This document shows, piece by piece, positions 43,951 to 63,672 of a DNA stretch of 64,000 nt (positions are counted from its first letter, which is position 1; each line of letters begins with the position of its first letter). This DNA comes from an uncultured Methylibium sp. (lineage in GTDB: Bacteria; Pseudomonadota; Gammaproteobacteria; Burkholderiales; Burkholderiaceae_C): contig NZ_CADEFR010000003.1 of NCBI RefSeq assembly GCF_902826655.1, positions 62,001-126,000 on the forward strand, written 5' to 3'. A model generated the notes under the pieces. It searched no databases and was not told the DNA's origin. It worked only from the letters and a program-made list of their open reading frames with translations. The position numbers were made by a program, and so were the translations under genes.

Positions 43951-45096
43951 TCAGGCGCGGGCCGGCAGCAGGATCCGGCGGTCCACCGTGCGGATGTCGG
44001 TGTGGCCGGTGAAGGCCATCGTGATGTCCAGCTCGTGGCGGATCAGCTCCAGCGCCTTGCTCACGCCGGCCTCGCCCATCGCGCCCAGGCCGTAGAGGAA
44101 GGCGCGGCCGATCATCGTGCCCTTTGCGCCCAGCGCCACGGCCTTCAGCACGTCCTGGCCCGAGCGGATGCCGCCGTCCATCCAGACCTCGATGCGCGAG
44201 CCGACCGCGTCGGCGATCTCGGGCAGTGCCGCGATCGACGAGGGCGCGCCGTCGAGCTGGCGTCCGCCGTGGTTGGACACCACCAGCGCGTCGGCGCCGC
44301 TGTCGGCTGCGAGGCGTGCGTCCTCGACGTCCATCACGCCCTTGAGGATCAGCCGGCCGCCCCATTGCTTCTTGATCCACTCCACGTCGGACCAGTCCAG
44401 CCGCGGATCGAACTGCTCCTTGGTCCACGCCGACAGCGAGCTCATGTCGCTGACCCCCTTGGCATGCCCGACCAGGTTGCCGAAGCTGTGGCGCCGCGTG
44501 CCCAGCATGCCCAGGCACCAGCGCGGCTTGGTCATCAGGTTGAGGATGTTGGCCAGCGTCGGCTTGGGCGGCGCGGTCATGCCGTTCTTGATGTCCTTGT
44601 GGCGCTGACCCAGCACCTGCAGGTCCAGCGTCAGCACCAGGGCCGAGCAGCGGGCCGCCTTGGCGCGGTCCATCAGGCGCTCCATGAAGTCGCGGTCGCG
44701 CATCCAGTAGAGCTGGAACCAGAACGGCGCCTGGGTGTGGGCCGCGATGTCCTCGATCGAGCAGATGCTCATCGTCGACAGCGTGAAGGGAATGCCGAAC
44801 TTCTCGGCCGCGCGGGCGCCGAGGATCTCGCCGTCGGCGTGCTGCATGCCGGTCAGGCCGGTCGGCGCGATCGCCACCGGCATGGCGACCTCCTGGCCGG
44901 CCATCGTGGTGCGCAGCGTGCGGCCCTCCATGTTGACGGCGACGCGCTGGCGCAGCTTGAAGGCACGGAAGTCGGCCTCGTTGGCGCGGTAGGTGCTCTC
45001 GGTCCAGGAGCCCGAGTCGGCGTAGTCGTAGAACATGCGCGGGACGCGCCTCTCGGCCAGGACGCGCAGGTCCTCGATGCAGGTGATGACGGGCAT
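43951..45096 (-). CDS. lldD: FMN-dependent L-lactate dehydrogenase/alpha-hydroxyacid oxidase family
   Basis: The 381-residue protein belongs to the FMN alpha-hydroxyacid dehydrogenase family. It begins with CIEDLRVLAERRVPRMFYDYADSGSW, has PIAIAPTG-like PVAIAPTGLTG, and contains the catalytic His-Gly-Gly-Arg-Gln in SNHGGRQLDGAP. The FMN-phosphate site is MDGGIRSGQDVLKA. It oxidises L-lactate to pyruvate and passes electrons to quinones, with the membrane-association loop around residues 175-215. The ATG at 45096 gives the standard length. Confidence 0.92.
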   Translation of the reverse strand: MPVITCIEDLRVLAERRVPRMFYDYADSGSWTESTYRANEADFRAFKLRQRVAVNMEGRTLRTTMAGQEVAMPVAIAPTGLTGMQHADGEILGARAAEKFGIPFTLSTMSICSIEDIAAHTQAPFWFQLYWMRDRDFMERLMDRAKAARCSALVLTLDLQVLGQRHKDIKNGMTAPPKPTLANILNLMTKPRWCLGMLGTRRHSFGNLVGHAKGVSDMSSLSAWTKEQFDPRLDWSDVEWIKKQWGGRLILKGVMDVEDARLAADSGADALVVSNHGGRQLDGAPSSIAALPEIADAVGSRIEVWMDGGIRSGQDVLKAVALGAKGTMIGRAFLYGLGAMGEAGVSKALELIRHELDITMAFTGHTDIRTVDRRILLPARA

Positions 45097-45229
45097 GGGA
45101 GCTTCCTTGTCGGGCCGCCATTCTGGGGCAGCCGGCGCGTGGGACACTCTCGGCCTCGCGCCGGCCCCTGCCCGGGCCGTCGGCGCGGCTGTCCGGTGAA
45201 AGCGCCACAAGCGCATGGGAGTTCGAACG

Positions 45230-46381
45230 ATGCCGATCCGTCGTCCCTGCGGGCCCTGGCCCGTGCTGTGCCTGCTGAGCCTGGCACTCGTTGCCTGCGG
45301 CAAGGACCCCGCCGCCCAGCCGGCCGCGACGGCCGCCAAGCCGACCGCGCCGGCCCTGCTGCTGGCGCCCGAGGACCTGCGCACCGTGAGCATGAGCCCG
45401 CAGGCGCTGGGCCCGGTGATCACCGGCTCCATCCAGCCCGAGAAGCGCGCCGACCTGCGTGCCGAGGTGTCGGCCGTCGTGCTGCAGGTGCTCAAGGAAA
45501 ACGGCGATACCGTGAAGCAGGGCGACCTGCTGGTGCGTCTGGACGACACCTCGATCCGCGACAGCCTGGCGTCGGCCGAGGAAGCGACGCGCGCCGCCGG
45601 CCAGGCCCACGACCAGGCCGAGCGCCAGGTGCAGCGGCTCAAGACGCTGCAGGCCCAGGGCATGCTGTCGATGCAGGCGCTGGAAGACGCCGAGATCCGC
45701 CGCAACAACGCGCAGAGCGAGCTGGTCGCGGCCCGCGCCCGCGGCGTGTCGGCGCGCCAGCAGCTGCGCCGCACCGAGGTGCGGGCGCCCTTCGCCGGCA
45801 TGGTCAGCGAGCGCAAGGTCTCGGCCGGCGACACCGCCCAGATCGGCAAGGAGCTGGTCAAGGTGATCGACCCGTCGAGCATGCGCTTCGAGGGCCTGGT
45901 GTCCGCCGACCGCATGCACGAGGTGAAGCTCGGCCAGGCGGTGAGCTTCCGGGTCAGCGGCTACCCGCAGGCCCGCTTCACCGGCCAGGTGAAGCGCGTC
46001 GACGCCGCAGCCAACGCGACGACGCGGCAGGTCGAGGTGCTGGTTGGTTTCCCCGCCAAGGACGGTCCGCAGACCGCCGGCCTGTACGCGGAAGGGCGCA
46101 TCCAGACCGGCGGCGGCGGTGCGCTGATGCTGCCCGACGCGGCCGTGCAGCGCAGCGCCGACGCGGCGCATGTCTGGCGCGTCAAGGACCGCAAGCTGGC
46201 CAGGGTGGCGGTGCAGCTGGGCGAGCGCGATGCGCGCCGCGGCGAATACCCGTTGCTGGGCGGCCTGGCCGATGGCGACCAGATCCTGCGCAACCCGGGC
46301 AGCAACCTGGTCGACGGCCAGGCGGTCGAGTTCGCCAGCGCCACCGCGGGCAGCGCCGCGTCGGCCGCCGGCGGCGGCTGA
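45230..46381 (+). CDS. RND efflux periplasmic adaptor (membrane fusion protein)
   Basis: The 383-residue lipoprotein (signal LLSLALVACGKD) has a biotinyl-lipoyl domain split by a coiled-coil hairpin (VLQVLKENGDTVKQGDLLVRLDD, then a long helix pair, then RAPFAGMVSERKVSAGD). Beta-barrel and membrane-proximal domains follow. It bridges the RND pump to an outer-membrane channel. The ATG at 45230 is preferred over 45215 because GGGAG sits eight bases upstream. The C-terminus is Ala/Ser-rich. It is 21 bases upstream of its pump gene; no outer-membrane factor gene follows. Confidence 0.92.
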   Translation: MPIRRPCGPWPVLCLLSLALVACGKDPAAQPAATAAKPTAPALLLAPEDLRTVSMSPQALGPVITGSIQPEKRADLRAEVSAVVLQVLKENGDTVKQGDLLVRLDDTSIRDSLASAEEATRAAGQAHDQAERQVQRLKTLQAQGMLSMQALEDAEIRRNNAQSELVAARARGVSARQQLRRTEVRAPFAGMVSERKVSAGDTAQIGKELVKVIDPSSMRFEGLVSADRMHEVKLGQAVSFRVSGYPQARFTGQVKRVDAAANATTRQVEVLVGFPAKDGPQTAGLYAEGRIQTGGGGALMLPDAAVQRSADAAHVWRVKDRKLARVAVQLGERDARRGEYPLLGGLADGDQILRNPGSNLVDGQAVEFASATAGSAASAAGGG

Positions 46382-50237: not shown

Positions 50238-51104
50238 TCACAAGGCCGGGCGCTCGGCCAGCACGCCGGTGCGCAGCAGGTAGCCGACCAGCTTCTCCGA
50301 GGCGCGGACGCGGTGCGCGACGGCGGCCGGGTGGCCGATGGCGGCCTGGCGCACCTCGTAGGCGTCCGCGATGCCGGCGTCGCGGTAGGCCGCGGGGTTG
50401 TAGTACTCGCCCCAGCAGGCGCGCAGGTAGTCGCCGAGCCAGCGCCGGAACGCCGCCAGCGCGTCGGCGTCCCAGCCCGGCGCGTGGCGCTCGAAGAGCT
50501 CGGCCAGGTGCAGCCGCCCGAAGGCGAGGTGACGGGCCTCGTCGATGTGGTGGACCTGGTTGATGCGGCGCGTCAGCGCGTCGACGCGCTCGTCCTGCTC
50601 GATGACGACGTTGTAGAAGTCGCCCAGCTCCTCGACCACCATCGCCATGCAGAAGAACACGACCTCCTCCTCGCCGGGCGCGAGCGGCCGCGGCGCGAGC
50701 GCCAGCTTCTTGTCCGGGTAGACCTTGCCGACGTAGCGGTGGCAGTACTCCCCGAACATCACCATGTGCTTGTTCTCCTCGTCCAGGAAGTGATGCAGGT
50801 AGCCGGTGATCGGGCGGTTGTTGCTGCGCGCGTAGAGGCGATGCGCCAGACCCTGCACCAGCAGCCGCTCGCCGTGCAGGATCAGGCTGAAGACGTTGGC
50901 CATCTCGTGCAGGGCGAGCCGGTGGCGGCCGGCCTCGTCGAGCGCGTCCCAGGCCGGCGTGCCGTGGAGCGACACCAGCTCCGGCGACATCGCCCATGCC
51001 GCGTCATCCAGGCGCTCGGGCCAGTCGATGGCGCGGTAGACGTCGTAGAACTTCCGGCATGACGCGCGCGACAGTCGATCGGCGATCTCCGAGGCGGTTT
51101 CCAT
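50238..51104 (-). CDS. AurF-like diiron oxygenase family protein
   Basis: The 288-residue all-helical protein has the diiron ligand pattern of the AurF (p-aminobenzoate N-oxygenase) family: Glu79 in HGERLLV, Glu110 and His113 in EENKHMVMF, Glu159 in [10 protein letters not shown], and Glu189 and His192 in DEARHLAF. AurF itself oxidises an arylamine to a nitro group; the substrate here is unknown. The gene starts 67 bases from an FNR-type palindrome and is followed by a hemerythrin gene, suggesting a role under low oxygen or nitrosative conditions. Upstream lies the truncated pufL, with only 38 bases to its candidate start. Confidence 0.85.
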
Positions 51105-51142
51105 GCGACGGGGGGCTCCAGGCAGGGGGCAAGAGACGTCCG

Positions 51143-51772
51143 ATGCTAGGAAGCGACCCTCGCGACAGGGCTGATCTGGATCAAGGCACGAGCGCCCGGG
51201 GCTCCTGGCAGCTCATCACGGTCTGCGCGATCGGCGCCTTCGGATCCTGGGCGCTGCGCGAGGTCGAGATCTGTCGAAAGCTCGGCATCGGCTACCACGT
51301 GCCCTTCGCGTTCAGCTTCGCGATCCTGGCCTACGTGACGCTGGTCGTGATCCGCCCGGTGCTGATGGGCGCCTGGGGCCACGGCTTCCCCTACGGGATC
51401 ATGAGTCACCTGGACTGGGTGTCGAACACCGGCTACCAGTACCTGCACTTCCACTACAACCCGGCGCACATGCTGGGGGTGAGCTTCTTCTTCGCGACCT
51501 GCTTCGCGCTGTCGCTGCACGGCTCGCTGATCCTGTCGTCGACCAACCCGGCCCCGGGTGAGCCGGTCAAGACGGCCGAGCACGAGAACACCTTCTTCCG
51601 CGACGCGATCGGCTACTCGATCGGCACCCTGGGCATCCACCGGCTCGGCCTGTTCCTGGCGCTGTCGGCGGTGTTCTGGAGCGCGGTGTGCATCGTCATC
51701 AGCGGGCCGTTCTGGACGCGCGGCTGGCCCGAGTGGTGGGGCTGGTGGCTGAACCTGCCGATCTGGCGCTGA
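51143..51772 (+). pseudogene. pufL: Photosynthetic reaction centre L subunit, 5'-truncated (pufL)
   Basis: From about codon 20 this frame is unmistakable PufL ([29 protein letters not shown]-like [34 protein letters not shown], and the terminal WPEWWGWW). The bacteriochlorophyll and iron ligands equivalent to L-His153, 173, 190 and 230 are all present (here 89, 109, 126 and 166, a constant offset of 64). Residues L1 to about L83, including transmembrane helix A, are missing. They are replaced by about 19 unrelated codons from the upstream spacer. No pufB or pufA precedes it. An in-frame ATG at 51143 could express a chimeric product, but it is unlikely to assemble. Confidence 0.9.
51171..51184 (-). 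promoter_or_regulatory. FNR/Anr-type binding site
   Basis: On the minus strand this reads TTGAT-CCAG-ATCAG, one base from the FNR consensus TTGAT-N4-ATCAA. It is centred 73 bases upstream of the AurF-like start codon, so a site at -41.5 would imply a leader of about 32 bases. It predicts activation or repression of the diiron/hemerythrin pair by oxygen limitation. It lies inside the region now read as the 5' end of the truncated pufL. Confidence 0.7.
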
Positions 51773-51799
51773 CCCGCACCGAACGACGAGGAGACCAAC

Positions 51800-52774
51800 G
51801 TGGCCGAATACCAGAACCTCTTCACACGGGTGCAGGTTGCCGCACCCTCCTATGCCGGCGTGCCGCTGGCAGCAGGGTCCAAGAAGCGCGACGGCGTGCC
51901 CGCGCACATCCACCTGTTCGGCCGCCTCGGCGACGCGCAGATCGGGCCGATCTACCTGGGCTGGCTGGGGCTGATCTCGATCATCTGCTTCTTCGCGGCC
52001 TTCGAGATCATCGGCCTGAACATGCTGGCCTCGGTCAACTGGGACATCGTGCAGTTCGTGCGGCAGCTGCCCTGGCTGGCGCTCGAGCCGCCGCCACCCG
52101 AGTACGGCCTGAAGATGCCACCGCTCAACCAGGGCGGCTGGTGGCTGATGGCGGGCTTCTTCCTCACCGCGTCGATCCTGCTCTGGTGGGCGCGCATGTA
52201 CCGCCGGGCCCGCGCGCTGGGCATGGGCACGCACGTGGCGTGGGCCTTCGCCGCGGCGATCTGGCTGTACCTGGTGCTGGGCTTCTTCCGCCCGATCCTG
52301 ATGGGCAGCTGGGGCGAGGCGGTGCCGTTCGGCATCTTCCCCCACCTCGACTGGACCGCGGCCTTCTCGATCCGCTACGGCAACCTGTTCTACAACCCCT
52401 TCCACATGCTCAGCATCGCCTTCCTGTACGGGTCGGCGCTGCTGTTCGCGATGCACGGGGCGACCATCCTCGCGGTCAGCCGCTTCGGCGGCGAGCGCGA
52501 GATCGAGCAGATCACCGACCGCGGCACCGCCAGCGAACGCGCCGCGCTGTTCTGGCGCTGGACCATGGGCTTCAACGCGACGATGGAATCGGTCCACCGC
52601 TGGGCCTGGTGGTTCGCGGTGCTGTGCCCGCTCACCGGCGGCATCGGCATCCTGCTGACCGGCACGGTGGTCGACAACTGGTTCCTCTGGGCCGTCAAGC
52701 ACGGCGTGGCGCCGGGCTATCCGGCGGTGTTTCCGGCGGTCACCGACCCCGCCCTGCTGGGAGTCAAGCCATGA
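51800..52774 (+). CDS. pufM: Photosynthetic reaction centre M subunit
   Basis: The 324-residue protein is full length with five transmembrane helices. Cofactor ligands fall at the same numbers as in Rhodobacter sphaeroides: His182 (FPHLDW), His202 (NPFHML), His219 (AMHGAT), Glu234 and His266 (ESVHRWAWW). It would hold the special pair, accessory pigment, QA and the non-heme iron with PufL. The GTG at 51800 has GAGGAG seven bases upstream. The stop overlaps the pufC start (ATGA). Unlike its neighbours it shows no lesion, yet without a complete PufL it cannot form a normal reaction centre. Confidence 0.95.
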
Positions 52775-54176
52775 GCAAGCGCCTCGACAAGGGCCACGTC
52801 ATCGTGCGGACGACACCGTGGCTCTTCCTGGCAGCCGCCGCGCTGCTGCTGTCCGGGTGCGAGCGGCCCCCGGTGGACACGGTGCAGCGCGGCTACCGCG
52901 GCACCGGCATGGAGCAGGTCTACAACCCGCGCATCGTCGCGACCCAGGCGGCGCTGAACACGTCGCCGGCCGCGCTGCCGGCAGCACCCGCGGACGGCCC
53001 CAAGGCCAAGGACACCTTCAAGAACGTGCAGGTCCTCGGCGACCAGAGCGTGGCCGAGTTCACCCGCACCATGACGGCGATCACGGCCTGGGTCGCACCG
53101 AAGCAGGGCTGCGTCTACTGCCACGCCGCCGGCGAGGACCTGTCGTCGGACAAGCTCTACACCAAGGTCGTCGCCCGCAAGGTGCTGCAGATGACGCAGC
53201 ACATCAACGCCGACTGGAAGAACCACACGTCGCCGAGACCGGCGTCACCTGCTACACCTGCCACCGTGGTCAACCGGTGCCGGCCGAGGTGTGGTTCACG
53301 AGTGCGCCGCAGAAGCAGGCGACGGCCCTGGTCGGCGATCGCGCCGGCCAGAACGTCGCGGCGGGCTCGGTGGCCTGGGCCTCGCTGCCCGAGGACCCGT
53401 TCACGCCCTTCCTGGCCAGCGGCAACGAGATCCGCGTCATCGGAACCACGGCGCTGCCGTCCGGCAACCGCCAATCGACCAAGCAGGCCGAGTGGACCTA
53501 CGGACTGATGATGCACATGTCGCAGTCGCTGGGCGTGAACTGCACCTACTGCCACAACAGCCGTTCGTTCGCGCAGTGGGACGCCAGCACGCCGCAGCGC
53601 ACCACGGCCTGGTACGGCATCCGCATGGCGCGCGATCTGAACAAGGCCTACATGCAGCCGCTGACCTCGGTCTTTCCGGCGTCTCGCAACGGGCCGACCG
53701 GCGATGTCGCCAAGGTCAACTGCGCGACCTGCCACCAGGGGGCCTACAAGCCGCTCTACGGCACCAGCCTGCTGAAGGCGCACCCCGAGCTGAGCGGCGT
53801 CAAGGTGGCGGTGACGGCACCGGCCGCTGCCGCAGAACCGGCTGCCGCCCCCGCGTCGGTCGACAGCGCGACGGTATTCTTCGCGGTCGGCTCGTCGGCG
53901 CTGACGGACGACGGCAGCAAGAGCCTCGCGGCGCTGGCCGAGTCCCTGAAGGCCAACGCGTCGGCCAAGGCGGTGATCTCCGGCTACCACTCGGCCTCGG
54001 GCAGCCTGAGCCAGAACCAGGAGCTCGCGAAGCAGCGCGCCTTCGCCGTGCGCGATGCGCTGAAGGCGGCCGGCATCGGCGCCGACCGCGTCGTGCTGGA
54101 GAAGCCGCAGTCGGCCGAAGCCAACCTGTCGGGCGAGGATCCGAAGGCGCGGCGCGTCGAGGTGGCGCTGAAGTAG
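52771..54176 (+). pseudogene. pufC: Reaction centre tetraheme cytochrome PufC with OmpA-like tail, frameshifted
   Basis: A lipoprotein signal ([10 protein letters not shown]) and the first heme motif (CVYCH) are in one frame; the other three (CYTCH, CTYCH, CATCH) lie in another. The switch occurs at 53225-53228, where CACAC stands in place of an expected CAC, consistent with a 2-base AC slippage insertion (a single-base loss is the alternative). As written, translation would stop at 53508. The restored protein would carry four c-type hemes that reduce the special pair, anchored by lipid at the periplasmic side. After the cytochrome comes an Ala/Pro linker and an OmpA-like domain (about 53866-54173: [41 protein letters not shown]). 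Confidence 0.9.
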
Positions 54177-54192
54177 CGTCCGAGTGGCGGCC

Positions 54193-54212
54193 GGCCCCGC
54201 AGCGGCGGGGCC
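54193..54212 (+). terminator. Hairpin after pufC
   Basis: An 8-bp perfect stem (GGCCCCGC with GCGGGGCC) with an AGCG loop lies 16 bases after the pufC stop. It has no T-run. It may end or stabilise the puf transcript before the heme oxygenase gene that starts at 54254. Confidence 0.55.
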
Positions 54213-54253
54213 GCTGCCTATGATGGGGGCTCCCCAACGCGACGGAGCGCCGT

Positions 54254-54937
54254 GTGAGCGAGCCCCTGGCCGAGCGCCTGAAGTCCGAGACCCACGAGCT
54301 GCACCGCGCCGCCGAGCGCAGCGCCTTCATGAGCGCGCTGCTGAGCGGCCGCCTGGAGCGCGGCGCGTATGCGCTGATGCTGCGCAGCCTGCACGAGATC
54401 TACGCGGCCCTCGAGGCCGGGCTGGACGCGCACCCGGGCCATCCGCAGCTCGCGCGCGTCTGGTGCCCGGCGCTGGCACGACGCGCGGCGCTGGAGCGCG
54501 ACCTGTGCGGCCTGGCCGGCAAGGCGTGGGCGACCGAGCTCGACGCGCAGCCGGCGGCGCAGCAGCATGCCCGCCACCTGCGGCAGCTGGCCCGCGAGAC
54601 GCCGGCCGCGTTGCTGGGCCACGCCTACGTGCGCTACCTCGGGGACCTGAGCGGCGGCCAGCTGCTCGCGCCCATCGTCGAGCGCAGCCTGCAGCTGCCG
54701 GCTGGCGACGCGACGCGCTTCTACGACTTCGGAGGTGTCTCGCTGGCCGCGCAGCGTGGCCGGGACTTCCGCGACGGCCTCGCGGCGATCGACGATCGCG
54801 GTCGCCTGGCCGACATGCTGGTGGCCGAGGCACGGCTCGCCTTCGGCCTGCATCTGCGCCTGTTCGACGAGCTCGCGCTCGCCGCCGATCTGGCGCGGCC
54901 TCAGCCTTCCGACGCCAGCCCGCGCAGTCGCGCGTAG
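54254..54937 (+). CDS. Biliverdin-producing heme oxygenase
   Basis: The 227-residue protein has the heme oxygenase fold: proximal His region ETHELHRAAERSAF, central RSLHEIYAALE, and the distal-helix motif YVRYLGDLSGGQLLAP with its flexible glycines. It opens heme to biliverdin, the chromophore of bacteriophytochromes. The next gene, convergent and overlapping by 37 bases, encodes exactly such a photoreceptor. The GTG at 54254 has GGAG six bases upstream. Its position 77 bases after pufC on the same strand suggests transcription with the puf operon. Length is slightly greater than the usual BphO-type enzymes (about 190-200). Confidence 0.9.
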   Translation: MSEPLAERLKSETHELHRAAERSAFMSALLSGRLERGAYALMLRSLHEIYAALEAGLDAHPGHPQLARVWCPALARRAALERDLCGLAGKAWATELDAQPAAQQHARHLRQLARETPAALLGHAYVRYLGDLSGGQLLAPIVERSLQLPAGDATRFYDFGGVSLAAQRGRDFRDGLAAIDDRGRLADMLVAEARLAFGLHLRLFDELALAADLARPQPSDASPRSRA

Positions 54938-57087
54938 AGCGCCGCGGCGCGCTCGGTCGAGGCCTCCAGTTCCTCGAGCAGCGGCGCCACGCCCGGCAAG
55001 GCATTGCCGTCGGCGATGTCCATCGCCGCCAGGCTCGCGTTGGCGAGGATCGCGTTCATCAGTCCATCGGCCTGCGTCTCGCCGCGGCCGGCCGGCTGGC
55101 GCAGGCCGGTGCGCGACAGCGACTGCTCGAGATGCTGGCGCGCGGCAGCCGTGCGGCGGCTTTCACGCAGATCGTCGAGGATCAGGAAGTAGCCCAGCAC
55201 CGAGCCGTCGCGCGCCGGAACGACCTCGGCGCGCAGGCCGACCGGCAGCGTGTCGCTGCCGCGCGCCAGGCTCAGCTCGCCGCGCCAGGGCTGCCGCTCC
55301 TGGCTCAGCTGGTCCACGGCCTTGCGCAGCAGCGCGGGCTGCGTGCACAGGGCGGCCAGGTCGTCGAGCGACGCGCTGCCGCTGCTCACGCCGGTCAGGT
55401 CGCGGAAGGCGTCGTTGACGAACAGCAGGTGCTGCGTCGCGTCGGCGATCGCGATCGGCTCCTTGGAGTGCGCGACGGTGGCGCGGATGCCGGCGAGCTG
55501 GTGCTCGGCGATCAGCAGGCGCACCGCGTTGACCTGCACCACGATGTCGATCAGCGCCTCGCCGAAGGCCCGCGCGAGCGCCTGTTCGCCCGTCGACCAG
55601 GGCAGGGCGGTGCCGCGCACGATCTCGGACCAGGCGGCGAAGGACCGCCGCGGCGACAGCTCCAGCGGGTCGTTGCCGACCACCGGCTTGGACGGATCGC
55701 CCGCCCAGGTGACGGTCAGCAACTGCGCCTTGCGGAACCAGACCAGGTAATCGGGCCGTGCCGCCGACAGCTTGACGGCCAGCACGCCGCTGGCGGTCGG
55801 CGTCAGCGAATCGAGCGCCGGGTTCTCTCGCGCCACCGAAGAGCAGCTGAACAGCCCGTCGAAGGACCGCGTGTCGATCCACTGCAGCAGCGCACGCAGC
55901 TCGGGTGTCGACGGCACCTCGCCCGAGGTCAGCAGCTCGCCCTCGTGATACAGCGCGGCGCCGGTCGCATCGAGCGGCTGCAGCAGCGTGCGCGGATTGC
56001 GGAACAGCGCCAGCCGCCAGTCGCCCTCGGTCGAGGTGGCCTCGACCAGGCGCTGCTCGAGGCGCCGCACCTGGATGGCGACCTGCGCATGGGCGTAGTT
56101 CTCGATCGCCGTGATGCGCGTCGAGATCACCTCGGCCAGCATGTCGGCCGCCGCGCGCACCGCAAAGCGCAGATTGCGCGGGCTGTAGTGGTGGCAGGCG
56201 ATCAGACCCCAGAGCTTGCCTTCACGCACCAGCGACACCACCAGCGTCGCCGTCACGCCCATGTTCTTCAGGTACTGCAGATGCAGCGGCGACATGCTGC
56301 GCAGCTGGCACAGCGACATGTCGAGGTCTTCGTCGCTGCCGCGCAGGCGCTGCGGCAGCAGGGGGGCGGCCTCGTAGTGCACGTCGGCCAGCACGCGCAC
56401 GCGGTTGCGCAGGTAGAGCTCGCGGGCGCGCTGCGGGATGTCGGAGGCCGGGTAGTGATGATCCAGCAGCGACTCCAGGCGCGGATCGCGCGCCTCGGCG
56501 ATGATCTTGCCGTGGCCGTCGGGGTCGAACTTGTAGACCATCACGCGGTCGTAGCCGACCAGGTCGCGGAAGCAGCGCACCACCGAGTCGGCCAGCGTGC
56601 CGATGGTCGATGCATTGCTGAAGCGTTCGACGGCGGCGCCGAGCTGCTCGACCAGCCGGTCGTGGGGCAGGTCGACCGTCGGCAGGCTCGATGCCGTCGG
56701 CTCGATCTCGACGAGCAGCAGGCCGCGCGGCTCGCGGTGCAGGCAGCCCTCCCGGTCCGTCGCGCGGCCGTGGACGGCGATGCGACAGCGCAGCGGCGCC
56801 GGCTCCGACAGGTCGGCCGACGCGAGCTGGCGGCGTACCTGCGACTCGATGTCGCCGCCGAGCTCGGCCAGCTTCTGGCCCAGCAGCACCTCGGCCGGCA
56901 CGCCCGCCAGCGCCTCGAGGTTGGCGCTCAGCTGCACGATGCGCAGCTCGGGCTCGCGCAAGGCCAGCAGCAGGCCGTGCGGCTGCACCGACCCGGCCAG
57001 GTGGATGAGCTCGCGCTCGCAGTTGCTCAGGTCGGCCTGGCCGAAGGGCGGGCTGGTCAGCGCGCTCACGGCCGGCTCAGGTTGCAT
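54901..57087 (-). CDS. bphP: Bacteriophytochrome without histidine kinase (PAS-GAF-PHY-PAS output)
   Basis: The 728-residue photoreceptor has the chromophore Cys23 (SNCERELIH, then GSVQPHG), a PAS domain, and a GAF domain with PASDIPQ and ACHHYSP. The PHY domain has the tongue motif PRRSF. After residue about 505 comes a further PAS (IAIADATQHLLFVNDAFRDLTG) and a helical C-terminal segment, but no HisKA or HATPase domain. This is the layout of BphP1/BrBphP proteins that bind and relieve PpsR repression under far-red light. The ppsR gene immediately upstream overlaps it by 11 bases, which strongly supports that partnership. Confidence 0.93.
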   Translation of the reverse strand: MQPEPAVSALTSPPFGQADLSNCERELIHLAGSVQPHGLLLALREPELRIVQLSANLEALAGVPAEVLLGQKLAELGGDIESQVRRQLASADLSEPAPLRCRIAVHGRATDREGCLHREPRGLLLVEIEPTASSLPTVDLPHDRLVEQLGAAVERFSNASTIGTLADSVVRCFRDLVGYDRVMVYKFDPDGHGKIIAEARDPRLESLLDHHYPASDIPQRARELYLRNRVRVLADVHYEAAPLLPQRLRGSDEDLDMSLCQLRSMSPLHLQYLKNMGVTATLVVSLVREGKLWGLIACHHYSPRNLRFAVRAAADMLAEVISTRITAIENYAHAQVAIQVRRLEQRLVEATSTEGDWRLALFRNPRTLLQPLDATGAALYHEGELLTSGEVPSTPELRALLQWIDTRSFDGLFSCSSVARENPALDSLTPTASGVLAVKLSAARPDYLVWFRKAQLLTVTWAGDPSKPVVGNDPLELSPRRSFAAWSEIVRGTALPWSTGEQALARAFGEALIDIVVQVNAVRLLIAEHQLAGIRATVAHSKEPIAIADATQHLLFVNDAFRDLTGVSSGSASLDDLAALCTQPALLRKAVDQLSQERQPWRGELSLARGSDTLPVGLRAEVVPARDGSVLGYFLILDDLRESRRTAAARQHLEQSLSRTGLRQPAGRGETQADGLMNAILANASLAAMDIADGNALPGVAPLLEELEASTERAAALYARLRGLASEG

Positions 57088-58459
57088 CGCCCGTCCCGGG
57101 TCCGCGCCGGCGCTTCAGCGTGCGCGCGGTGATGCCCAGCAAGGCGGCCGCGGCCGCGACGTCGCCGCCGACGCGCTGCAGCGCCGCGTCGATCAGCTGC
57201 CGTTGCGCCCGTGCGTTGGCGTCGCGCAGCAGCGTGCCCAGGTCGGCCGTGCCCAGGCGCGCCGCGAGCGGCGTCAGCACGACGCTCTCGGGCTGCGGCT
57301 CGTCCGTGGCCCGGTCGACGAGCTTGAGCATCAGGCCCACGCACTCCTGGTCGCCTTCGGTCAGCAGGGCCGCCGACACATCGACGCGGGCGGCCGGCGC
57401 GCCGGCCGCCCGCAGCACCAGGCCGGCGCGATGCGCCAGGCCGTGGCGGCGGACCGCGGTCAGCAGCGATTCGATCTCGGCGGGCGCCAGGCCGGCACGC
57501 TCGCCGAGCTGCCGGCCCTTGAGCGCGCCCTCGTCGCCGGCGCGCAGCAAGTCGACGAAGGCCGGATTGGCGGCGAGGATGCGACCGCTCGAGTCGGTGA
57601 CCACCACGCCCTCGTGCGCGCCGTCGACCAGCCGCGCCAGCGATCGACCGAGATCGAGCGGGCTGGCGGCCGCCCCTTCGGCCTGGCGCACGCGCACCAG
57701 CAGGTGCATCGCGCCGGCGCCGCGGAAGGGCGTGGCCGCGACGCTGGCACTGCCCACCTTGCCGGCCAGCCGCACGCGGATCTCGGCGGCGCGGCCGCCG
57801 GTACGCGCGGTCGTCAGCAACTCCTCGACCGCGCCGCGCGAGTGATGCTCGAAGCCGGCCACCACGTCGTGCCCGGCCAGCTGATCGAGGCTCAGGTCGA
57901 ACATCCGCGAGGCCGCCTCGTTGGCCTCGAGGATGCGCAGGCTGCCGGCGTCGACGATCATCACCGCGTCGGTCGCCACCTGGAACAGCAGCCGGTAGCG
58001 CGACTCGGCCTGGCGTGCCGACCAGTAGCCGCGTTCCATCTCGCGCTGCGCATCGACGAAGCGCTGCTGGATCGCCGCGATCGCACGCAGGTCGCGGCCG
58101 GCCGCCAGCACCGGGCCGTGCTCGCCGAGCCGCACCGCGGCGTAGGCGACCGGGATGTGGTCGCCGCTGGATGACGGGTGGTTGACCTCGCGCCGGCGCG
58201 CCAGCCCGGTCGACGTGACATCGGCCAGCAGGCGCTCGATCTTGCCGCGGGTGTCGGCCGTCACCGTGTCGACCCAGGGCCGGCCGACCCAGTCCCGCAC
58301 CGCGGCCGACAGCGGCGCGGCGTGGCCCTGCGCGACGTTGCGGACCACGCCGTCGGCATCGATCACCAGCGCGATGTCGCTGTCCAGCGACACGAAGGTC
58401 TGCGCCAGCTCGCGCGCCCACGGCGACAGGGCGGCGAGATCGGGGGCGTCATCCGGCAC
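57077..58459 (-). CDS. ppsR: PpsR/CrtJ-family photosynthesis gene repressor
   Basis: The 460-residue protein has an N-terminal PAS-like domain (IALVIDADGVVRNVAQG), a coiled Q-linker (QRFVDAQREMERGYWSARQAESRYR), and two PAS domains (DAVMIVDAGSLRILEANEAASRMFDL and GVVVTDSSGRILAANPAFVDLL, quoted as landmarks). A C-terminal Fis-type helix-turn-helix follows (GGDVAAAAALLGITARTLKRR). PpsR represses puf, bch and crt genes at TGT-N12-ACA sites. Only one cysteine is present (in DQECVGLML) and none in the HTH, so the CrtJ-type disulfide switch is not possible within one chain. It overlaps bphP, implying light rather than redox control. Confidence 0.93.
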   Translation of the reverse strand: MPDDAPDLAALSPWARELAQTFVSLDSDIALVIDADGVVRNVAQGHAAPLSAAVRDWVGRPWVDTVTADTRGKIERLLADVTSTGLARRREVNHPSSSGDHIPVAYAAVRLGEHGPVLAAGRDLRAIAAIQQRFVDAQREMERGYWSARQAESRYRLLFQVATDAVMIVDAGSLRILEANEAASRMFDLSLDQLAGHDVVAGFEHHSRGAVEELLTTARTGGRAAEIRVRLAGKVGSASVAATPFRGAGAMHLLVRVRQAEGAAASPLDLGRSLARLVDGAHEGVVVTDSSGRILAANPAFVDLLRAGDEGALKGRQLGERAGLAPAEIESLLTAVRRHGLAHRAGLVLRAAGAPAARVDVSAALLTEGDQECVGLMLKLVDRATDEPQPESVVLTPLAARLGTADLGTLLRDANARAQRQLIDAALQRVGGDVAAAAALLGITARTLKRRRGPGTGDAT

Positions 58460-58647
58460 GTGGCTCGCGTGGCTCCTTCGGGGGGCGTGGCCGAGCCCGG
58501 CCGCGCATCCCTGCCAGTTTAGGCGGGGGTCGGGGCCGGGGTGCCTAGGGGATGCGCGGGTCGGCGGACCGCAGCGTCGGCGTCATCAAGCCGTCATCGG
58601 CTCGCCCCGAACATCGAAAACTCCCCAACTCGACCGCATCGGACCTC

Positions 58648-59580
58648 ATGGACCGGCAGCCTGCCCCGAGCGTCGACCACGACGAACTCGTCCGACGCAT
58701 CGAGAACGACCTGATCGACGGCTACGACGAGGAGTTCGAGCTGGAGTTCGACGACCGCCAGCTCGAGGCGCTTGAACCCGGCGCCGGCGGCGACGAGGCG
58801 ACGCGCCAGGTCGAACGGCGCCGCTACTTCCGTGAGCTCTTCCGCCTGCAGGGCGAACTGGTCAAGCTGCAGGACTGGGTCGCGGCGACCCGGCAGAAGG
58901 TCGTGATCGTGTTCGAGGGCCGCGACTCGGCCGGCAAGGGCGGGGCCATCAAGCGCATCACGCAGCGGCTCAACCCGCGCGTCTGCCGCGTCGTCGCGCT
59001 GCCGGCGCCCAACGACCGCGAACGCACGCAGTGGTACTTCCAGCGCTACGTGCAGCACCTGCCGGCCGGCGGCGAGATCGTGCTGTTCGACCGCAGCTGG
59101 TACAACCGCGCCGGCGTCGAGCGCGTGATGGGCTTCTGCAGCGAAGACGAGGTCGAGGAGTTCTTCCGCTCGGTGCCGGAGTTCGAGCGCATGCTGGTGC
59201 GATCCGGCATCCGGCTGATCAAGTACTGGTTCTCGATCACCGACGAGGAACAGCACCTGCGCTTCCTCGGCCGCATCCACGACCCGCTCAAGCAGTGGAA
59301 GCTGAGCCCGATGGACCTGGAGAGCCGCGTGCGCTGGGAGGCCTACACCAAGGCCAAGGAAGCGATGCTCGAGCACACCCACATCCCCGAGGCGCCGTGG
59401 TGGCTGGTGCACGCGGTGGACAAGAAGCGCGCGCGCCTGAACTGCATCGCGCACCTGCTGTCGCAGATGCCCTACGAGGCCGTGCCCAAGCCCCTGGTCG
59501 AGCTGCCGCCGCGCGTGCGCAACCCCGACTACACGCGCCAGCCGGTGCCGGCCGAGATGGTCGTGCCCGAGGTCTACTGA
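58648..59580 (+). CDS. ppk2: Polyphosphate kinase 2
   Basis: The 310-residue protein is a single PPK2 domain with Walker A FEGRDSAGKGG (about residues 89-99), the lid RYVQHLPAGGEI and Walker B LFDRSWYNRAG (Asp148). It transfers phosphate between polyphosphate and nucleoside di- or monophosphates in the cytoplasm. The acidic N-terminal stretch (DDRQLEALEPG) is typical of class I enzymes. The ATG at 58648 is preferred over an upstream in-frame ATG at 58552. The 188 bases back to the ppsR start contain no other gene and should hold both promoters. Confidence 0.95.
   Translation: MDRQPAPSVDHDELVRRIENDLIDGYDEEFELEFDDRQLEALEPGAGGDEATRQVERRRYFRELFRLQGELVKLQDWVAATRQKVVIVFEGRDSAGKGGAIKRITQRLNPRVCRVVALPAPNDRERTQWYFQRYVQHLPAGGEIVLFDRSWYNRAGVERVMGFCSEDEVEEFFRSVPEFERMLVRSGIRLIKYWFSITDEEQHLRFLGRIHDPLKQWKLSPMDLESRVRWEAYTKAKEAMLEHTHIPEAPWWLVHAVDKKRARLNCIAHLLSQMPYEAVPKPLVELPPRVRNPDYTRQPVPAEMVVPEVY

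Positions 59581-63596: not shown

Positions 63597-63672
<76 letters not shown>

Follow-up and report, generated by a model that had tools for sequence, protein, structure and literature searches.

The reaction-centre genes pufL and pufM have been designated diagnostic markers for anoxygenic photosynthesis (PMC13043013), and phototroph surveys list Methylibium or Methylibium-like sequences (PMC5165242, PMC7333569). Within this genus, M. petroleiphilum PM1 is termed nonphotosynthetic in another source (PMC3684757). In Citromicrobium JL354, an incomplete pufLMC-puhCBA cluster has been described within an integrating conjugative element (PMC3338782). A literature search that left subscription journals mostly outside, and the parts of sources open to it, yielded no report of a shortened pufL next to a complete pufM in Methylibium or its relatives.

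The genome analysed here (G000, the source genome) has 4,221,868 bases in 142 contigs, with completeness estimated at 100% and contamination at 4.24%. The window, by which we mean the whole stretch of 64,000 nucleotides analysed, is C3:62001-126000 (NZ_CADEFR010000003.1), from a contig of 169,362 bases that extends beyond it on both sides. Comparison with Methylibium sp. Root1272 (genome G002, which has a 3,759-base stretch 100% identical to locus L007, NZ_LMDY01000003.1) revealed that window positions 51206-58444 are collinear with C3:93452-86073 of that genome (77% DNA identity over 7490 columns), and over 51206-53259 the identity is 83.9% by blastn. Like the photosynthesis gene cluster (PGC) of Root1272, the block carries pufL, pufM, pufC and the genes for heme oxygenase, bacteriophytochrome (BphP) and PpsR, in matching order and relative orientations, whereas Root1272 has a full-length pufL, a pufC in one frame and the remaining cluster. 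The initial annotation had confined the feature to the puf genes, but the block runs on beyond pufC through the heme oxygenase, bacteriophytochrome and ppsR genes to 58459. The block is an uninterrupted segment of a PGC, cut within pufL at its left end and ending just past ppsR at its right.

The left end of the block is a chimeric open frame (51143..51772, + strand), in which 21 unrelated codons are followed by the 3' part of pufL. The junction lies at 51187..51206, and similarity to Root1272 pufL begins at 51206, both by blastn and in a 20-base identity profile. The first conserved residue is Trp89 in the numbering of the Root1272 locus, which would be canonical Trp86 if His156 is, as we assume, canonical His153. 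In the profile search the source PufL matches PF00124 (Photo_RC) at profile positions 65 to 260 only, whereas positions 1-260 are covered in 39 rows from other genomes in the family search, and solved PufL chains are aligned by the source protein only from chain residue 79-92 onward. With transmembrane helix A at what we take to be its usual position, the frame therefore lacks it, as had been proposed from the first reading; the 5' truncation proposed then also stands, while the start, given as about residue 84, is better placed near 86. The retained part and Root1272 PufL have their histidines at matching positions throughout, and these presumably include canonical His153, 173, 190 and 230. 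No local repeat was detected at the junction within 50,900-51,400.

The pufM gene (51800..52774, +) is complete, with a TIGR01115 score of 556.7 bits against a cut-off of 364.25 (positions 1-305), and the best solved-structure match of its product is chain M of 9m8m (E=1.1e-177). The ligand and site residues His182, 202, 219 and 266, Tyr210, Trp252 and Glu234 are all present in what we take to be the canonical numbering, in agreement with the earlier statement that PufM keeps its full set of ligands, and the protein is thus a full-length PufM with its cofactor ligands.

In pufC the reading frame is broken. The first frame (52771..53508, +) contains the N-terminal part, heme motif 1 (CVYCH) and an out-of-frame tail ending with a stop at 53508, and the second frame (53232..54176, +) contains heme motifs 2-4 (CYTCH, CTYCH, CATCH) and a C-terminal OmpA domain (PF00691). 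Relative to intact relatives, the frameshift lies at 53226..53234 (+), after heme motif 1 and before motif 2, where the initial annotation had also put the change of frame, and it falls in a short dinucleotide run. PF02276 is split end to end, with profile positions 1-122 in the first frame and 123-309 in the second, while the two halves are adjacent and in one frame in all 79 loci having both (81 loci examined). The OmpA domain (window 53870-54176) is also found in 11 of the 79 loci with the second half of pufC, and such fusions recur across several genera among the compared loci; PMC12650329 describes them as relatively rare and as possible gene-model errors. Outside the block, an intact four-heme PufC-like gene (PF02276) adjoins a HiPIP gene on contig C44 of the source genome (L127, 12849-14060), and among the matches listed (best 40 candidates per genome) this paralogue had no match besides pufC in the other five genomes of the genus.

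Next to pufC, the genes for a heme oxygenase (54254..54937, +; PF01126, E=5.4e-54), a bacteriophytochrome with PAS-GAF-PHY-PAS architecture (54901..57087, -; PF08446, PF01590, PF00360, PF08448) and a PpsR/CrtJ-type repressor (57077..58459, -; TIGR02040, 280.6 bits, just over the cut-off of 275.4) are all open and together make up a BphP-PpsR light-control module. BphP carries an N-terminal Cys and the stretches PHG, PASDIP and PRRSF, which we take to be typical conserved motifs of phytochromes. The pattern TGT-N12-ACA, assumed here to be the target of PpsR, occurs four times in the window against 3.75 expected, and the one copy near the block sits inside ppsR itself; this count is at chance level. 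With its frames open and the phytochrome motifs retained, the set may still act as a light sensor, and recency alone would explain its state. We regard it as distinctly unlikely that the three genes are still working, kept by selection after the loss of phototrophy, and controlling other genes in a chemotrophic Methylibium. Similarity to the cluster stops at the right junction (58445..58551), beyond which a polyphosphate kinase 2 gene follows, whereas Root1272 has puhE beyond ppsR.

The PGC of Root1272 spans roughly 45 kb, and the slice corresponding to the source block sits between bchXYZ-pufBA and puhE-acsF-puhA. When 26 selected Root1272 frames were scanned with family models, five had no family and one (phosphofructokinase) lay outside the cluster. 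The genes recognised on the pufL side of the slice are pufA, pufB, bchZ, bchY, bchX, a prenyl synthase gene and crtD, along with a crtB-like frame scoring under its cut-off, a crtI-family frame and bchO; the ppsR side has puhE, acsF, puhA, bchL, bchH, bchB, bchN, a second ppsR and bchP. In the source genome, the model searches detected neither puhA nor BchY, while G002 and G005 were positive in the same searches. The Photo_RC profile search gave two matches in the source genome, both in the block, and hence no other reaction-centre gene; a second puf operon, or a complete pufBALMC elsewhere that would have spoken against a broken operon, was rejected on this result.

The bch genes other than BchY were searched only as Root1272 DNA, by comparing three 20-kb pieces of Root1272 C3 covering the PGC with the source genome (best 40 of 1117, 1140 and 1199 candidates). 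Among the matches listed, no pufBA, bch, puh or crt DNA scored above 70 bits in the source genome apart from a short repeat. The matches listed within the cluster were the block itself, a cross-match of ppsR (125 bits), the C44 pufC paralogue (70%, 304 bits), a fragment of 76 bits within the OmpA-coding part of pufC, and other fragments of at most 70 bits; the remaining strong matches of the Root1272 pieces fall outside the cluster. The genome-wide search for pufBA, bch, crt and puh genes that had been proposed initially thus showed, within the cluster and among the matches listed, nothing but the block, paralogues, the short repeat and weak fragments. Since paralogues of 66-72% identity were listed, kb-long bch relatives at the usual distance should have appeared. 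The initial statement that pufB and pufA are absent agrees with the lack of a match to the pufBA-bearing Root1272 DNA among the best 40 of 1117 candidates, a search that very short genes could escape. The short repeat, of up to about 95 bases, lies between bchZ and bchY of Root1272 (G002 C3:95934-96027) and has 15 matches in the source genome (76-86%, 65-99 bits). In these searches, then, the source genome yielded neither the pufB and pufA of a working pufBALMC operon (best 40 of 1117 candidates) nor the puhA and bacteriochlorophyll genes of an anoxygenic phototroph. The earlier description of two lesions around one intact gene understates the damage, because most of a Root1272-type cluster is gone.

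These results bear on whether assembly or binning errors produced both the 51.2-kb join and the frameshift in pufC, with the 5' end of pufL in reality intact and the cluster still present. The fragmentation into 142 contigs and the 4.24% contamination leave room for such errors, and one is conceivable in the dinucleotide run of pufC. A false join would, however, leave the remaining cluster on other contigs, and none was found there; the cut lies inside a 169-kb contig and has no local repeat (repeats genome-wide being seen only through the matches listed), so that an assembly join is unlikely, and to the right of the block the genes have Methylibium matches of 74-86%. The alternative of an assembly join raised in the initial annotation therefore appears disfavoured, and as the main reading it was rejected because the remaining cluster is on no other contig; we consider an artefact of this kind improbable. 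A contaminant contig was also rejected, given the 74-86% matches to Methylibium right of the block.

The genes that remain are little decayed in sequence. Departures at near-invariant columns number 0 of 89 in PufL and 0 of 127 in PufM (81 rows), 1 of 23 in the first part of pufC (79 rows) and 0 of 35 in the second (77 rows). Row L076, whose supposed pufL hit is in fact pufM sequence, was left out of this test and of the PufLM tree; with L076 kept and other coverage limits the departures were likewise 0, 0, 1 and 0. The branch omega values of the source tip and of the rest of the tree, estimated on branches near saturation (1.4-3.7 on the source tip) with tests that are weak, were 0.107/0.028 for pufL, 0.071/0.068 for pufM and 0.120/0.093 for pufC with seven taxa, and 0.056/0.025, 0.084/0.047 and 0.121/0.097, respectively, with six taxa, where BphP gave 0.130/0.087 and PpsR 0.093/0.109. 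Only pufL with seven taxa passed the nominal 5% test (2 dlnL 5.33); with six taxa pufL fell below the threshold (2 dlnL 2.14) and pufM came near it (3.58). As a control, the Root1272 tip in pufL had an omega of 0.012 with a gain of 3.94 (seven taxa) and of 0.007 with a gain of 5.10 (six taxa). Because this tip departs about as clearly, towards lower omega, the result for the source pufL is not specific. An omega of 1 for the whole source branch was rejected for pufL, pufM, pufC, BphP and PpsR (2 dlnL 9.5-37.9, six taxa), and if decay at omega 1 is assumed, the puf figures correspond arithmetically to roughly 0 to 8% of the branch without selection. Two fits were left out as unconverged, namely that of heme oxygenase (length about 20, negative gain) and that of pufM with six taxa and Root1272 as foreground (gain -1.74).

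Codon changes in pufM were polarised with several outgroups. With L013, the source branch has 35 changes at first or second positions against 31 at third positions, while Root1272 has 10 against 32. The corresponding counts are 18/19 for the source and 8/18 for Root1272 with L013 and L012, 16/18 and 7/13 with L015 and L010, 14/11 and 7/13 with four outgroups, and 25/33 and 19/29 with L099. There is thus a hint that amino-acid change in pufM is raised on the source branch, given by L013, less so by three other outgroup sets and not by L099. From the state of the sequences, the loss looks young compared with the divergence from Root1272; the same picture would be expected of a piece acquired recently. 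The initial suggestion of a recent loss caught early fits the barely decayed sequence, but in gene content the loss is not early, as most of the cluster is gone.

Low omega and open frames, together with the unchanged near-invariant columns of PufL and PufM, would also be in keeping with pieces of PufL, PufM and PufC that are still useful, for example in an incomplete reaction centre or as a cytochrome acting on its own. This seems extremely improbable to us, since the bch genes and puhA were not found, PufL is without its N-terminal third, pufC is split, and low omega is equally expected from recent loss.

The surroundings of the block were compared with those of other Methylibium clusters. 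Beside the cut is an open gene for an AurF-like diiron oxygenase (50238..51104, -; PF11583, E=2e-47), which is not among the recognised Root1272 cluster genes and has no match in the five other genus genomes at E<=0.001; it has a 67% paralogue on contig C10 of its own genome. An FNR-like box, CTGATCTGGATCAA, is found at 51171..51184 with one mismatch to TTGATN4ATCAA, the pattern we take for FNR, which occurs twice in the window where 0.16 occurrences would be expected; the box is to the left of the cut and may possibly belong to the promoter of the AurF-like gene. On the other side, the polyphosphate kinase 2 gene (58552..59580, +; PF03976, E=1.2e-108) has one counterpart each in G001 and G002, at other locations, with 83-84% DNA identity. 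Further away in the window (43954-45915), an FMN-dependent dehydrogenase gene (PF01070) has DNA matches of 83-88% in all five other genus genomes, with two in G001.

No synteny was found between the source flanks and the PGC site of Root1272 or of G001. In those two genomes the PGC or its scar, respectively, adjoins a tRNA-Thr gene and a phosphofructokinase gene, and the equivalent of the tRNA-Thr region in the source genome (C36, first 32 kb) is without PGC DNA and largely in the gene order of G003. At L151 4480-7230 (G000 C36), 2.6 kb of DNA containing transposase pieces (HTH_21, rve) is enclosed by a pair of tRNA-Thr(CGT) genes, and this tRNA is the one that borders the PGC in Root1272 and the scar in G001. 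Hence, of the signs expected of loss by deletion, a collinear close relative is at hand and shared flanks at that relative's PGC site are not; the cluster either sat elsewhere in the source lineage or was moved.

The phylogenies differ among the genes. In the 81-row PufLM tree the source does not group with Root1272, its placement (81/34) is unsupported, and G005 lies elsewhere; transfer of puf genes between genera seems to have occurred, with Variovorax J22R133 grouping with Rhizobacter and Methylibium. In trees of eight rows, the source pairs with Root1272 for BphP (94.7/90), for heme oxygenase, BphP and PpsR together (86.8/83) and, weakly, for all genes joined (66/71), while in those of PufLM and PpsR no such pair is formed and Root1272 groups with Variovorax (13/46 and 59/54). 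The PufLM trees accordingly give no support to a vertical inheritance of puf genes inside Methylibium.

The slice might have been incomplete when it was acquired, through horizontal transfer or alongside another segment, in a lineage without any earlier working cluster at this position. Flanks not common to the Root1272 PGC site, the separation of source and Root1272 in the PufLM and PpsR trees and the apparent mobility of puf genes between genera in the 81-row tree are in favour of such an origin, and the incomplete cluster in the Citromicrobium JL354 conjugative element is a precedent (PMC3338782). Against it, the block edges have neither a tRNA (the nearest is at 63597) nor a direct repeat, the neighbours are the AurF-like and PPK2 genes and not integrases, the block G+C (0.67-0.74) brackets that of the flanks (0.71), and the BphP tree pairs the source with Root1272. 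In addition, the 83.9% identity over 51206-53259 is within the 74-86% DNA identity of other genes common to the two genomes, which fits shared descent and is no proof of it. We therefore view acquisition of a broken piece as possible though unlikely, and loss within the source lineage as the likely course.

A second scar was found in G001, which we take to be probably M. petroleiphilum PM1. At C1:2958820-2960555 (L156), matches to Root1272 positions 64459-66194 and 111128-116501 are only 4 bases apart. What is left are an 88-aa gene of the cluster's left edge, a TspO region (its TspO is recognised as such in Root1272) and the last 331 codons of bchP, a 5'-truncated frame that is open and has 95% identity. 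On this comparison, G001 is an independent PGC loss in the genus through a different deletion; having lost most of the same cluster in another way, it indicates that such losses occur in Methylibium. Reaction-centre genes are present in 3 of the 6 genus genomes and in 41 of 250 sampled family genomes. Partial PufL or PufM rows occur in three of these 41 (G000, G078 and G212), and those of G078 (C106) and G212 (a single match) are at contig ends, leaving the source genome as the only one of the 41 with PufL cut away from a contig end. The same pufL truncation was not found in any other genome among the 6 of the genus or the 250 sampled from the family.

Taken together, the block is probably a remnant of PGC loss in a now non-phototrophic Methylibium whose ancestor would have been an aerobic anoxygenic phototroph. 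A deletion or rearrangement would have taken both flanking parts of the cluster and left the slice between unrelated genes, and phototrophy would have ended at that event or shortly before, after which the leftover puf genes, now presumably useless, would have begun to decay. With no synteny between these flanks and the PGC sites of Root1272 and G001, no full ancestral cluster can be assigned to this position. Without bch genes bacteriochlorophyll cannot be made; because these genes were not found, pufM here does not indicate phototrophy. On this evidence the source genome should not be scored as phototrophic, and the initial warning against scoring phototrophy from pufM alone is borne out by a complete pufM in a genome where puhA, BchY and other bch DNA were not found. 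With its intact pufM and no bacteriochlorophyll genes found, the source genome, 1 of the 41 in the family sample that carry reaction-centre genes, is a useful pufM false positive, while the loss is ordinary in kind.

Among known systems, the G001 scar is likewise a remnant of the same cluster type in the same genus; it differs from the source in keeping the left edge beside tRNA-Thr and the phosphofructokinase gene and in having no puf genes. This one genus contains a complete cluster, a remnant with puf genes and a remnant of the cluster edge, so that the course of loss can be compared directly. Citromicrobium JL354 also has a partial PGC with pufLMC, but there it is an extra piece, thought to be transferred, in a conjugative element beside a complete cluster (PMC3338782); in the source genome the block is the only piece found, pufL and pufC are broken, and no such element was seen. 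In a published genus with and without PGC among close relatives, loss has been proposed as the cause, as here. According to that report, one hypothetical gene replaces the whole cluster between conserved flanks, whereas in the source genome the flanks are not conserved and a 7.3-kb slice with an intact pufM has been kept.
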